This document shows positions 8,254-14,301 of a DNA stretch of 64,000 bases, piece by piece. Positions within the stretch are counted from its first letter, which is position 1. Each line of letters begins with the position of its first letter. The position numbers and the translations under genes were made by a program. A model generated the notes under the pieces. It ran no database searches and was not told the DNA's origin. It was given only the letters and a program-made list of their open reading frames with translations. Origin of the DNA: Deltaproteobacteria bacterium (GTDB lineage Bacteria > Desulfobacterota > Desulfarculia > JACQYL01); NCBI GenBank assembly GCA_016208165.1, contig JACQYL010000032.1, forward strand, positions 1 through 64,000. The letters are read 5' to 3'.

Positions 8254-8337
8254 AGTAGGACTTCAGAAAAAGCCGAATCTCGAGCGATCGGGAGGCGGAA
8301 AACTACGGGTCTCAAAGAGATCGCCGGGTTGCCTGAT
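8254..8337 (+). promoter_or_regulatory. Cyclic di-GMP-I (GEMM) riboswitch aptamer
   Basis: The region folds like the GEMM class. P1 is AGTAGG (8254-8259) pairing with CCTGAT near 8332-8337 with one mismatch. The junction ACTTCAG corresponds to the family's ACGCACAG. P2 (TCTCGA / TCGGGA, 8278-8293) is closed by a GCGA tetraloop of the GNRA type that docks in this class. P3 is TCTC-AAA-GAGA at 8310-8320. The 3' strand GCCGGGTTGCC matches the GEMM consensus closely. The 3' strand is shared with a terminator stem (8323-8359), so ligand binding should decide read-through. Some conserved core bases differ from consensus, so the ligand could be cyclic di-GMP or a related dinucleotide. Confidence 0.7.
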
Positions 8338-8413: not shown

Positions 8414-9016
8414 ATGAAGCGAGTGGTAGTTTTGGTGTTTCTGGGTCTAATGGCCCTGAGCCTGCCGGCTCAAGCCGTCACTTTTCAACTGGACAGCCTC
8501 ACCGTGGGCTCGTCGGATCCCGGATTGGTTCTCGGGGGTGGGCTGAACTACACGCCCCCGGTATCCTTCGATCTCGACTGCCCCGAGTGCAGCTACGACT
8601 CCGTGTTCTTCGACAATCTGTTCTATCTGTACAACACCGAGAGCGCATTGAACTTCGATGATTGGGCCACGATACCTCTTACCCTGACGTTCAATTTCTC
8701 GGTGCCTTCGGCCGGCGGTCAGGCCGTCTCCGGGCAGTCCCACGGATACTTCTCATTGATTCCGTTCGGCAACCGATGGGCGGTGGATCTCGACAACCCC
8801 ACCTTATTCTCCTTCACCGACGGAGCGTTCAATTATGAGCTCCGGGCCTTCATCAGCCCGGCCGAGGCTAACTTCGGCTGGACCGAGACGGGCTACTTCG
8901 ACGTGACCTTCAAGCTGAAAGAGTGCGAGGCCGTACCCATCCCCGGAGCGCTGTGGCTTCTCGGTTCCGGCCTAGTTGGAATGCTCGGGTTCCGGCGGCT
9001 TAGAAATAAAGCATAA
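8414..9016 (+). CDS. PEP-CTERM/VPLPA-CTERM sorting domain protein
   Basis: A 200-residue exported protein. A signal peptide (MKRVVVLVFLGLMALSLPAQA) is followed by a beta-rich body with a CPEC pair. The C-terminus is a classic exosortase sorting signal: VPIPGALWLLGSGLVGM, then FRRLR. The family is attached to or secreted with exopolysaccharide after exosortase cleavage. AAGGAGG lies seven bases before the ATG at 8414, and this start leaves the signal peptide intact. The gene stands alone between a riboswitch-controlled promoter and a strong terminator, so expression is probably tied to cyclic dinucleotide level, fitting biofilm or matrix control. No exosortase or polysaccharide gene is in the window. 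Confidence 0.9.
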   Translation: MKRVVVLVFLGLMALSLPAQAVTFQLDSLTVGSSDPGLVLGGGLNYTPPVSFDLDCPECSYDSVFFDNLFYLYNTESALNFDDWATIPLTLTFNFSVPSAGGQAVSGQSHGYFSLIPFGNRWAVDLDNPTLFSFTDGAFNYELRAFISPAEANFGWTETGYFDVTFKLKECEAVPIPGALWLLGSGLVGMLGFRRLRNKA

Positions 9017-9217: not shown

Positions 9218-9925
9218 CTACATCCCCAGGTAAGCTTCTCGGATCTCCTGGGTCTCGCAGATCTGTCGCGGGTCTCCTTCCGCGCGGATAGCGCCTTCAT
9301 GCATGACGTACACGTAGTCGGCCACGCGGAGGGAGGCTTCCACGTTCTGCTCCACCAAGAGGATCGTTAACCCGAATTCTTCCCGCATCTTCTGGATTGC
9401 TCGAAGGACCTCCTGGACCAGCAACGGAGCCAATCCCTGACTCGGCTCGTCGAACATGATAAGCTTGGGCTTGGTCATGAGCGCGCGCGCTATGGTCAGC
9501 ATCTGTTGCTCACCGCCGCTCAGGGATCCGGCCCGCTGCGCACCGCGCAGCTGGAGTATGGGAAAGAGCGAGTGGACCAACTGCAGATTGGCGTCTTTGT
9601 CCCCATGCGCTTTTTTCAGATAGGCGCCCATGACCACGTTCTCATGCACGGTCATGTTCGGGAACAGGTGCCTCCCCTCCGGGACCAGAGCCAGCCCCAG
9701 GTCCACCTTCTTATGGGTCGGCATAACCGTGATGTCGTTTTCATCGTACAGGATGGAGCCTCCCCAAGGCAGGATGGAGCCGAAGATGGCGCTCAAGAGC
9801 GTACTCTTGCCCACGCCGTTCGGTCCCAGAATCAGGGTCACCGTGCCGGAAACCACCTTTAGACTGGGTCTCCAAAGCACCTGCATGGCTCCGTAACCCG
9901 CCTCGAGGTCTCGTACGGTCAACAT
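9218..9925 (-). CDS. livF: Branched-chain amino acid ABC transporter ATP-binding protein LivF
   Basis: A 235-residue ABC ATPase of the LivF type that powers uptake of leucine, isoleucine, valine or related compounds. Walker A is GPNGVGKST, the Q-loop region is ALVPEGRHLFP, the signature is LSGGEQQML, Walker B is LIMFDEPSQGL and the switch His is replaced by Gln in LLVEQN, all as usual for LivF. It is the last gene of the operon and overlaps the preceding gene by seven bases. Because the partner LivG domain lacks its Walker A (see the fusion gene), LivF may be the only competent nucleotide-binding subunit. Confidence 0.95.
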   Translation of the reverse strand: MLTVRDLEAGYGAMQVLWRPSLKVVSGTVTLILGPNGVGKSTLLSAIFGSILPWGGSILYDENDITVMPTHKKVDLGLALVPEGRHLFPNMTVHENVVMGAYLKKAHGDKDANLQLVHSLFPILQLRGAQRAGSLSGGEQQMLTIARALMTKPKLIMFDEPSQGLAPLLVQEVLRAIQKMREEFGLTILLVEQNVEASLRVADYVYVMHEGAIRAEGDPRQICETQEIREAYLGM

Positions 9926-11505
9926 GATTGCTCCTTCGGCGGACGACCTAAGTACACCTCCACGACTCTCGGGTTTTCCAAGGCCTCTTTGGTAGGAGCG
10001 TCCACTAGCTTGGACCCCTGGTACAGGACCACGACCCTCTGGACGAGACCCACCACCGCCCGCATGATGTGCTCGACCATGGCCACGATGGAGATGCGCT
10101 CCTCCTCCGCGATGCGCTTGAGAAAATCGACGATGTGGTCAATGTCTTTCGGATGCATCCCGGCCATGGCCTCATCCATGAGCAGCAACTTGGGCCGCAT
10201 GGCCAGGGCTCGCGCGATCTCGGTGAGCTTTTTCTCGATGGGAGTGAGCCCGCCCGCCGGCTTGTCCCGGTGCTCTTGAAGGCCCACCAGTTCGACGTAG
10301 CGATCCGCGATCTCGAGCGCCTCCCGGACCCCAACCTTGCCGCTGAGCGTGCCGAACATGGCTCCCACCGCCACATTCTCCCGGACGGTGGCGGATCCGA
10401 AGGGCCTGGGAATCTGAAAGGTCCGTCCGAGTCCCATGGGCGCTCGCTTGTACGGAGGCATCCGTGTTATGTCTTTCCCCTCGAAGTAGATCCTCCCTTC
10501 CTCCGGGAAAAACACCCCGCTGATCAGATTGAACAGGGTCGTCCGCGCCAGCACGCCTATGACTCCCTCGGGAAACGCGACGATAATAATAATGATGATA
10601 GGCGCAAATATGAGCAGCTGAAATCCCGGAATAATGACGGTGAGCCAGTACTTGGTCAGTCCATAGATAAGCCCGCCGACAACCGGACCCAGCAACGTTC
10701 CGGCGCCTCCCAGCAGGACTATGATGATGCATTCGACGGTGTAATGGATTTCGAAAACTTCCGGAGGAAACACGTTCGTGACCTTCAAGCCCCACGCGGT
10801 CGCTCCGATCAACCCGGCGAGGGACGCGCTCGTGATAAAGGCGATGATCTTGTACTTCGTCACATGGATACCCATGACCTTGGCCGCGTCTTCATCCTCC
10901 CGAAGAGCAGTCAGGGCGTACCCGATCTTTCCTTTCATGTAACACAGGGTGATGAAGGCGGCGACCCCGGCTATGACAAAGACGAAAACATCCGCCCAGA
11001 AGGTGGACAGTAAGCTGGCGGTCTTCCGACCCACCGCCTGCGCCAACTGCCCGTAAAAAATGATGCCTTCGGATCCGCCCCAGAGCTTGGCTCCTTCGAT
11101 CAGATACCGGAACCCCTCGTTCACCCCGATCGTGGCGATGGCGAAATACGCGCCCCGGAGCCTCAAGGCTACCGCGCCCACAAAAATCGAGAGAATGGTG
11201 GACATGACCGCGGCGAGCAGGAAGCCGACCAGCACGACCCAACTACCCAGCCACTCTATATGGTACAGGTGGGAGATGCTCAGCGCCATCCCGTACGTGC
11301 CCACCCCCATGAACGCCACGTAGCCGAAGTCCACGTACCCGGTCATGCCCAGGAATATGTTGAACGCCTGGCCGATGGCGGCGTAGAAGGCCAGCATGGC
11401 TATCAATTGCCACATGCCCGGAGCGTTCCTTCCAATTAGGAACAACGTCAGATAGACCGCGTAGACGGGTATCAGGGGGTAGTACTTCGCTATTCTGTCG
11501 CTCAT
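9919..11505 (-). CDS. LivM permease fused in frame to a LivG ATPase domain that lacks Walker A
   Basis: A 528-residue chimera. Residues 1 to about 320 are a full LivM-type permease with several membrane segments and the EAA-like loop near YALTALREDEDAAKVMGI. The frame then runs straight from the LivM end PEGVIGVLA into TTLFNLISG, which in LivG directly follows GPNGAGK. The LivG start, A-loop and Walker A (about 50 residues) are therefore missing; the join is near base 10543. The rest of LivG is present: GLGRTFQIPRPF, a divergent signature region LTPIEKKLTEIARAL, Walker B LLLMDEAMAGM and VEHIM. Normal systems have separate genes or a fusion of about 575 residues. The ATPase half should not bind ATP normally. 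A real deletion or an assembly error are both possible. Confidence 0.88.
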   Translation of the reverse strand: MSDRIAKYYPLIPVYAVYLTLFLIGRNAPGMWQLIAMLAFYAAIGQAFNIFLGMTGYVDFGYVAFMGVGTYGMALSISHLYHIEWLGSWVVLVGFLLAAVMSTILSIFVGAVALRLRGAYFAIATIGVNEGFRYLIEGAKLWGGSEGIIFYGQLAQAVGRKTASLLSTFWADVFVFVIAGVAAFITLCYMKGKIGYALTALREDEDAAKVMGIHVTKYKIIAFITSASLAGLIGATAWGLKVTNVFPPEVFEIHYTVECIIIVLLGGAGTLLGPVVGGLIYGLTKYWLTVIIPGFQLLIFAPIIIIIIVAFPEGVIGVLARTTLFNLISGVFFPEEGRIYFEGKDITRMPPYKRAPMGLGRTFQIPRPFGSATVRENVAVGAMFGTLSGKVGVREALEIADRYVELVGLQEHRDKPAGGLTPIEKKLTEIARALAMRPKLLLMDEAMAGMHPKDIDHIVDFLKRIAEEERISIVAMVEHIMRAVVGLVQRVVVLYQGSKLVDAPTKEALENPRVVEVYLGRPPKEQSC

Positions 11506-12389
11506 TTGGTCCCCATCAGCCCGGTGGGCTTTATCAAGAGGATCACGAGTAACATCACGAAGGAAAAGAAGCGCGTCATTGCAAAGGGCTCCAATCCGGG
11601 TATCATCGCAAACAAGGTGTAGCAGCCGTTTTCCAGGAGCCCGAAAATCAAGCCCCCGAAAAAGGCGCCGTAGGGAGAACCCAGGCCCCCCAAAACCGCA
11701 ACGACAAATGCTTTCAGAGTGTACGTACCGCCCATGTACGGGTTAATGCCGACGGGGATGAACATCGTAAGCAGGACGCCGCTCACGACCGTCAAGGATA
11801 TTCCCAGGGCAAAGCTCATGGCATATACCCATCCTACGTTGACGCCGCACACACTGGCCCCGATATCGTCTTCGACGACACTTCGCACCGCCGTCCCCGC
11901 TCGGGTCTTCTTGAACCAAACGTACAAGATGATCGCCACGAGGATGCTTCCGGCAAGAGCGTAGACTTTGCTCATGGGCAGCACCGTTACACCGAGGTCG
12001 ACCCGTGACACTATCCAGTTGTATCCGCGGAACTCGGACCCGAAGATCTGTTTGATCAGCTCCTCGAGCAGTATGCCGATAGCAAAGGTGGCCAGAAGAG
12101 AAGCAAGCTCCGGAGCCTTGATCAGCCTTCGGATGGAAGTGTAATAGAACAGGCACCCAAGCGCGATGCCCACGACAAAGGCGACGGGGATCGCGAGCAT
12201 GGGGTTCAGGCCGAAGGTGTTAAACAGGAAGAGGGCTATGAAGGCGCCGACCATCATAAAGGCTCCGTGGCCCACGTTGACGACGTTCAGCACCCCGAAG
12301 ATCAAGCTCAGACCCATGGTGGCCACGCCGTAAATCCCGCCGAGGAACAAGCCCTGTATGAGATTTCCAGCTAGCTGTTCTCCAATCAT
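11502..12389 (-). CDS. livH: Branched-chain amino acid ABC transporter permease LivH
   Basis: A 295-residue inner-membrane permease. It has hydrophobic segments throughout, the family opening NLIQGLFLGGIYGVATMGLSLIFGVLNVVNVGHGAFMM region, and the cytoplasmic coupling loop around TRAGTAVRSVVEDDIGASVCGVN. It overlaps the following livM-livG gene by four bases (ATGA), showing translational coupling. It forms the substrate channel with the LivM half of the next gene, fed by LivK. Confidence 0.95.
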   Translation of the reverse strand: MIGEQLAGNLIQGLFLGGIYGVATMGLSLIFGVLNVVNVGHGAFMMVGAFIALFLFNTFGLNPMLAIPVAFVVGIALGCLFYYTSIRRLIKAPELASLLATFAIGILLEELIKQIFGSEFRGYNWIVSRVDLGVTVLPMSKVYALAGSILVAIILYVWFKKTRAGTAVRSVVEDDIGASVCGVNVGWVYAMSFALGISLTVVSGVLLTMFIPVGINPYMGGTYTLKAFVVAVLGGLGSPYGAFFGGLIFGLLENGCYTLFAMIPGLEPFAMTRFFSFVMLLVILLIKPTGLMGTK

Positions 12390-12526: not shown

Positions 12527-13816
12527 CTACTTGGGTACGGCCAACTTGCCCTTTGCCTTTTCCTCGAAGCTGGGCAGGGGGTAGTACAGCTTGCCCGTGG
12601 CCGCGTCCGGAGGCCATATTATGACCCGATCGCCGCCCTGCCACTGCATGTCCACCATGCTGTGCCCGACCTGTTTTCCGGTTTCATCGACATCCCATCC
12701 GCCGTAAAACGACATGAACGCGAGATTTCCAAAGGCCTCCCGGACCTTATCCATCTCGAGCGAATCCGCCATCTCGATGGCTTTAACGAGCGACAGGATC
12801 GCCGCGCCGGCTTCGGCCGCATGATACTCGGGAGTCAGGTCTTTGCCCACGGCTTCCTTGAACAGACTCACAAACTCGTCTTGGGAGGGGCCGAGCCACT
12901 GCTTACCTGCTTTGTCCGCGGCCTCCTTCGAATATTTCACCCCGTATTCCCAGTGGGAGGGTCCCATGATGCCGTCCGCGATGGATCCCAGGGCCTCGTA
13001 AAACGCGGGCAACGTGACGCTCACCACAATCGAGATGGCTTTGGCGTTGATGCCCAGATCCGCCATCTGCCTGGCAAACAGCTGTCCGTCTTCAAAGTGG
13101 CCGCCACCGATGACGATGTCCGGCTTACTCGACTTCATATCCGAAAGAACGGGAGTCAAGTCGGGGGTGCCTTCAGGGTAAGTCCGTTTGAACACGATGT
13201 CATAGCCGATCTTTTTGGCGTGTTCCTCGGCGCCTTTCATCACATCCCTCGAAAACTCCGCATCCTTGTATAGCAGGGCCAGCCGCTTGGATTCGGGGTC
13301 CACCTTGCGCAGCATGTCCAGCGTGCCCACGTGATACAGGCTTCCGGGACCAATGGTTTGAACGACATACCGAAACCCCTGTTCGAAAATGCGATCGCTG
13401 GCGCCGCCGTGATCCAGGTAGAGCATTCCGTACTTCTCGGCCACGGGGGCGCCGGCCAAGGTCAGGGGGGAACTGTAAGGCGTCAGCAGGAAGTTCACCT
13501 TGTCCACCGTGATCAATCGCTCGATGAGGCTGGTGACGACTTCCTTTTTGGACTCACAGTCGTAGTTGACGTACTCGATGGGAAGCTTCTTGCCTCCCAC
13601 CGAGACTCCGCCGTACACCTCGTTGATCCACTTGATACACCCTTTGACGCCGCCGATGGCCTGCTCTCCGGCTTTGGCAAACTTCCCCGAAAGACACTCC
13701 GGGTGTCCCACGAGAATGCTGTCGCGCGATTCCGCGCTGGAGGCCATGAAGCTCGCCGAAACAAAGATGCTCAGAGTGAGCAGACAGATGATGCCAAAAC
13801 GTTCTCTCATTTTCAT
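12527..13816 (-). CDS. livK: Branched-chain amino acid ABC transporter substrate-binding protein LivK
   Basis: A periplasmic type I binding protein of 429 residues. A signal peptide (MRERFGIICLLTLSIFVSASF, ending near SSA-ES) is followed by ILVGHPECLSGKFAKAGEQ, the usual first strand and ligand loop, and by GGVKGCIKWINE. The protein is larger than E. coli LivK and of the amide/aromatic/branched-chain group, so the ligand is uncertain. The ATG at 13816 has GGGAG six bases upstream. A longer frame reaching 13972 lacks a ribosome site and would bury the signal peptide. It is the first gene of the operon. Confidence 0.92.
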   Translation of the reverse strand: MKMRERFGIICLLTLSIFVSASFMASSAESRDSILVGHPECLSGKFAKAGEQAIGGVKGCIKWINEVYGGVSVGGKKLPIEYVNYDCESKKEVVTSLIERLITVDKVNFLLTPYSSPLTLAGAPVAEKYGMLYLDHGGASDRIFEQGFRYVVQTIGPGSLYHVGTLDMLRKVDPESKRLALLYKDAEFSRDVMKGAEEHAKKIGYDIVFKRTYPEGTPDLTPVLSDMKSSKPDIVIGGGHFEDGQLFARQMADLGINAKAISIVVSVTLPAFYEALGSIADGIMGPSHWEYGVKYSKEAADKAGKQWLGPSQDEFVSLFKEAVGKDLTPEYHAAEAGAAILSLVKAIEMADSLEMDKVREAFGNLAFMSFYGGWDVDETGKQVGHSMVDMQWQGGDRVIIWPPDAATGKLYYPLPSFEEKAKGKLAVPK

Positions 13817-14301
13817 TCGGCTCTCCCTTTTATTTGTGTTGGTGGTCACCATACATGCGCTCCTGATGGCGCTTATCAAGCGCCTTTCTGCGTTTGCATC
13901 CGAATAAGCTGCAGTCGATATCAAGCATGCGGCCCGCGCGGGGGCTAGAAAACGGGTCCGAAGACCGTACATGAAGGGCGGCGAGGCATTGTGAAATCAA
14001 GACGAATAAAAACCGTCCGGAAACAGGCGGGCCGCTTTTGGATCAAGCCGAACGCCCTGTTGTTCCCGGCATTCCTGCTCAGTTTCAATCCATGGAATTT
14101 ACCAACGGTTGTTCTGTTGTATACCAGATCGGAAATGAAAAGGAAAGATTAAACAGGTATGATTATCCGGATGTCTAATGCATCCTGCACCTAAATTACG
14201 TATAGTTGTCTGATTCGTTCAAGAACTGTCGACGGACGACGATGGTCTTACGGTGGCGGATGCTGCAGATTGCACACCCAACGTCGCGAGAGGTTGATTT
14301 C
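13817..14301. other. Divergent intergenic region between livK and the PfpI-like gene
   Basis: About 485 bases that should carry the promoters of the liv operon (left) and of the PfpI-like gene (right). No gene, clear -10/-35 pair, operator palindrome or riboswitch could be assigned. Confidence 0.4.

Follow-up and report, generated by a model that had tools for sequence, protein, structure and literature searches.

The window, by which we mean the whole stretch of 64,000 nucleotides that was analyzed, contains genes for a substrate-binding protein, two BPD_transp_2 permeases, and two ABC_tran ATPases, the second of which is partial (Table 1). Together these identify a Liv/HAAT operon, and the gene order, K-H-M-G-F, and the Pfam domains of all subunits are those of the LivFGHMK/HAAT-type importers of branched-chain amino acids (or urea-like compounds). 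Unlike those importers, however, the operon in the window has livM and livG fused, a Walker A motif lost, and LTPIE at the signature position of LivG. Since the LivG part has no Walker A, so that the motif is not present in both ATPase subunits, the operon is a broken, rather than an intact, member of the Liv/HAAT family. The best matches among solved structures are MJ1267 (1g6h) for LivG and 1ji0 for LivF. For all four proteins, the NCBIfam matches listed fall under their curated cut-offs, and for this reason we leave the substrate unnamed. The livK-type protein probably starts at a later codon than the first listed ATG. A c-di-GMP-I riboswitch (RF01051, 53.5 bits) is present at 8262-8336 on the forward strand, immediately before an ORF that ends at 9016, which has no Pfam match and whose tail we take to be PEP-CTERM-like.

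Table 1. Features of the liv operon in the window, with positions counted from the first nucleotide of the window.
Feature	Positions	Strand	Basis
livF; has Walker A (GPNGVGKS) and LSGGE, with Gln replacing His in the switch loop (VEQN)	9218..9925	-	Pfam and motifs
Fused ORF livM-'livG, 528 aa	9919..11505	-	ORF translation and Pfam
LivG remnant, TTLFNLISG to stop (residues 322-528)	9919..10542	-	
LivG signature position, LTPIEKK, noncanonical and conserved in the subfamily	10228..10248	-	
Junction, Leu-319 followed by Ala-Arg where relatives have the LivM tail, the spacer, and the N terminus of LivG	10543..10551	-	
LivM part, residues 1-319	10549..11505	-	Pfam BPD_transp_2 and tails of relatives
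livH, permease	11502..12389	-	Pfam BPD_transp_2
livK-type substrate-binding protein	12527..13972	-	Pfam Peripla_BP_6 from residue 86

Translation of the fused ORF gives a single open frame across the junction, ...FPEGVIGVL-AR-TTLFNLISG.... BPD_transp_2 matches residues 34-306 with E = 9.4e-31 (profile positions 5-268 of 269), and ABC_tran matches residues 322-447 with E = 7.9e-14, starting at profile position 25 of 137. The Pfam scores on both halves rule out a chance resemblance. A pattern search for Walker A, [AG]x4GK[ST], found no match anywhere in the fused ORF. The LivG remnant retains the Q-loop (TFQIP), Walker B (LLLMDE), and the switch histidine of the H-loop (VEH). When aligned to MJ1267, it starts at residue 45 of that protein, and everything before this residue is missing; the LivM part lacks about the last 15 residues present in relatives. 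The junction consists of residues 319-321, and the Ala-Arg codons match neither the LivM nor the LivG consensus. An earlier note on this DNA had described the end of LivM as running straight into TTLFNLISG without a P-loop, and the translation, the Pfam matches, and the motif search all confirm this.

What is the arrangement in relatives? Genome contigs were scanned and yielded 80 loci, 53 of which carry LivM and LivG matches that are both above 60% identity. In all 53, livM and livG are separate, the N terminus of LivG is complete and runs into the P-loop, and the livM stop falls about 15 residues past the junction position. These loci and 11 stretches from genomes of the phylum, with identical copies removed, provided 64 distinct LivG cores at ≥60% identity. 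GxNGxGKT is present in 63 of these (GPNGSGKT in 42, GPNGAGKT in 19, and GTNGSGKT and GANGSGKT in 1 each), and the exception, L081, begins at the end of a contig. The commonest excess in spacing of relatives over the window is 173 bp, seen at 26 of 59 measurable loci, and at 36 of the 59 the excess has the remainder modulo 3 that would bring the two genes into one frame. The missing 173 bp correspond to about 15 C-terminal codons of LivM, the stop, the spacer, and 41-43 codons of LivG. Thus, a loss of LivG residues had been correctly noticed, although its size, put at about 50 residues, was slightly high. The frame had also been described as kept. There is indeed one open frame, but most relatives have livM and livG in different frames, which a deletion would have joined.

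A search of 395 genomes of the phylum, in which three candidates were scored per genome, found 18 other genomes holding the system at E ≤ 1e-75, and in none of these does a single match extend across the junction. The fusion is unique to this assembly among the relatives examined, which supports the earlier proposal of an in-frame deletion in this strain or assembly. Sequence conserved in the relatives examined is missing from this single genome, as expected for a deletion-made null allele. Among 63 genomes of the class, only the window's own has the system at E ≤ 1e-70; the other 62 lack this LivM/LivG type at that threshold, but it is present in the 18 other genomes of the phylum. This patchy distribution perhaps reflects horizontal movement.

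The same genome encodes a natural LivM-LivG fusion, L016 on contig C94, in which LivM is followed by a linker and the full N terminus of LivG with GPNGAGKTTLFN, after which the contig ends. L016 is like the window ORF in having permease and then ATPase in one frame, but it differs in its linker and complete LivG N terminus with GPNGAGKTT, whereas no complete LivG domain follows the permease in the window ORF, where LivG starts at Thr-Thr past the P-loop. Because the natural fusion keeps its P-loop, fusion as such is ordinary, but loss of the P-loop is not. There is no second copy of the window-type LivG in the genome, the other matches to the LivG half being at most 42% identical. Nor does the assembly contain an orphan copy of the missing head of LivG. 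The best match, at 69%, is inside an intact 263-aa frame on contig C141, and we reject the idea that the missing piece lies on another contig. A paralogous livG on contig C121 matches the first 27 bp past the junction at 96%, so P-loop DNA of this conserved kind is found more than once in the genome. At the junction itself, the sequence GGCGCGG is similar to the P-loop string Gly-Ala-Gly of the C121 paralogue.

The ATP sites of ABC proteins are composite, with the Walker A and B motifs and the switch from one subunit and the signature from its partner, as described in the available text of PMC7756269. At the signature position of LivG, the 64 distinct relatives have LTPVEK (47), LTPIEK (10), LTPTEK (4), LTPVDK (2), or LTAVEK (1), and none has LSGGQ. 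The form LTP(V/I/T)(E/D)K, found in the window and at loci L031-L089 and L140-L150, thus accounts for 63 of the 64. LivF in this subfamily has LSGGE or LSGGQ, with a few MSGG, and Gln at the switch position. Because the LivG signature is LTPVE-like and the LivF switch His has become Gln, the site built on LivF Walker A is altered twice, and the site formed by LivG Walker A and LivF LSGGE is the only fully canonical one. By sequence, the relatives have this one canonical composite site (Walker A/B, switch His, and partner signature), while in the window it is lost. From these motifs, the subfamily looks like a single-catalytic-site importer.

In the available text of PMC7756269, Pdr5, which has a degenerate nucleotide site, has the signature LNVEQ and Tyr in the H-loop. 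The relatives of the window resemble it in combining an altered signature in one subunit with an altered switch in the other, both in the same composite site. They are unlike the Pdr5-type transporters described there in that the subfamily is one of importers, and the deletion in the window affects the other, canonical site. We found nothing on degenerate sites in LivFG in the open-access literature searched. In the LivG proteins compared from the genome's other Liv systems, taken from 30 loci of 92 matches, the fourth signature position is glycine. More distant LivG proteins (L088 and L090; Desulfurella and Anaerotruncus; 39-42% identity) also have no glycine-containing signature there, and the signature loss may be wider than this Liv subfamily.

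In leave-one-out comparisons, the LivG remnant differs from its relatives at 2 of 57 invariant columns; both are residues of the junction, which align with the P-loop Gly-Lys. Window LivM departs at 0 of 88, and window LivF departs at 3 of 69, which ranks it last of 53. Judged by these columns, the LivG remnant is not decayed, which points to a recent loss or an assembly error and not to an old dead gene. Terminal branches of the window genes rank 4 (LivH), 18 (LivM), 9 (LivG), and 2 (LivF) of 47 in a four-gene set, where the fixed topology may inflate branches if the genes differ in history. In another tree, from which five loci with partial genes were left out, LivF ranked 1 of 48. Thus, when used to date the loss, branch lengths and relative-rate counts give a mixed signal across LivF, LivM, LivG, and LivH. 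Window LivF may be somewhat relaxed, and its divergence could mean that constraint has been relaxed for longer than 'recent' implies, but the four-gene ranks are mixed.

We consider it probable that an ordinary livKHMGF-type (HAAT) importer has been broken by one real and recent deletion of about 173 bp, giving a null. This deletion would have taken the last codons of livM, the spacer, and the first part of livG, in which Walker A is encoded, leaving both genes in a single frame. The product is predicted to retain the membrane part of LivM and the ATPase domain without its N-terminal part and P-loop. Because the complex would then have no canonical ATP site left, the importer is expected to be dead, and the conservation of the remnant suggests that the event was recent. 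A less likely but serious alternative is that the organism has a normal livM and livG, and that about 173 bp were dropped when reads or contigs were joined. The genome is a draft in 142 contigs, and a LivG remnant conserved as though under selection until now, Ala-Arg codons that fit neither flank, and the recurrence of the P-loop DNA on C121 are all consistent with such an error. However, the junction lies within a contig that is at least 64 kb long and free of Ns, and the best direct repeats at the junction are imperfect pairs of 11-14 nt, none of them long. Because no long direct repeat spans the junction, a k-mer collapse would have no obvious cause. Furthermore, in a check of 20 further proteins of the window, albeit a weak one, no other gene was clearly broken; a Pfam match, in some cases partial, was present for 18 of the 20. 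We lean, then, toward a real deletion over an artefact. A repeat-driven deletion was also considered, but only short imperfect repeats were found at the boundaries.

Could the fusion protein still work? The earlier note had offered a degenerate half-site transporter with LivF as its one competent ATPase. In such a transporter, the P-loop-less LivG would still keep the dimer assembled, and transport would be driven by LivF alone. The open frame and the conserved LivG remnant are consistent with this, and many ABC transporters are known to have degenerate sites that are conserved, as stated in the available text of PMC7756269. However, the LivF site needs the signature of LivG, which is LTPIE here, and LivF itself has Gln at the switch, so the supposedly competent site is the degenerate one, and the canonical site is the one destroyed. 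The degenerate-site transporters in the available text of that article retain one canonical site. In addition, the whole of LivG before the equivalent of MJ1267 residue 45 is missing, and the fusion is seen in no other genome examined. With the canonical LivG site lost, few readings are less likely than a transporter that runs on LivF alone, and we regard it as very improbable. It is slightly more doubtful still that this is a natural permease-ATPase fusion whose ATPase is supplied in trans by another LivG encoded in the genome. There are many other Liv systems with an intact LivG in the genome, and L016 provides one natural fusion, but L016 retains its P-loop after a linker, and the other LivG proteins are no more than 42% identical to the window LivG. 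We give just as little credence to a fusion that is real, fixed, and expressed, in a complex that functions with no ATP bound to LivG, be it as a substrate sensor, as a facilitator, or by ATP binding to LivF alone. That such a working fusion is the end point of a subfamily already reduced to one canonical ATP site appears equally improbable.

The locus itself represents one broken or misassembled gene pair and is mainly a warning for annotation. The fusion would have an ordinary explanation, and the ATPase asymmetry suggested by the subfamily's motifs is a side result. A Liv subfamily that combines an LTPVE-like LivG signature with a LivF devoid of the switch histidine would be a natural importer with a single catalytic site. 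If this is true biochemically, whether importers need two hydrolysis events could be tested in a native system.
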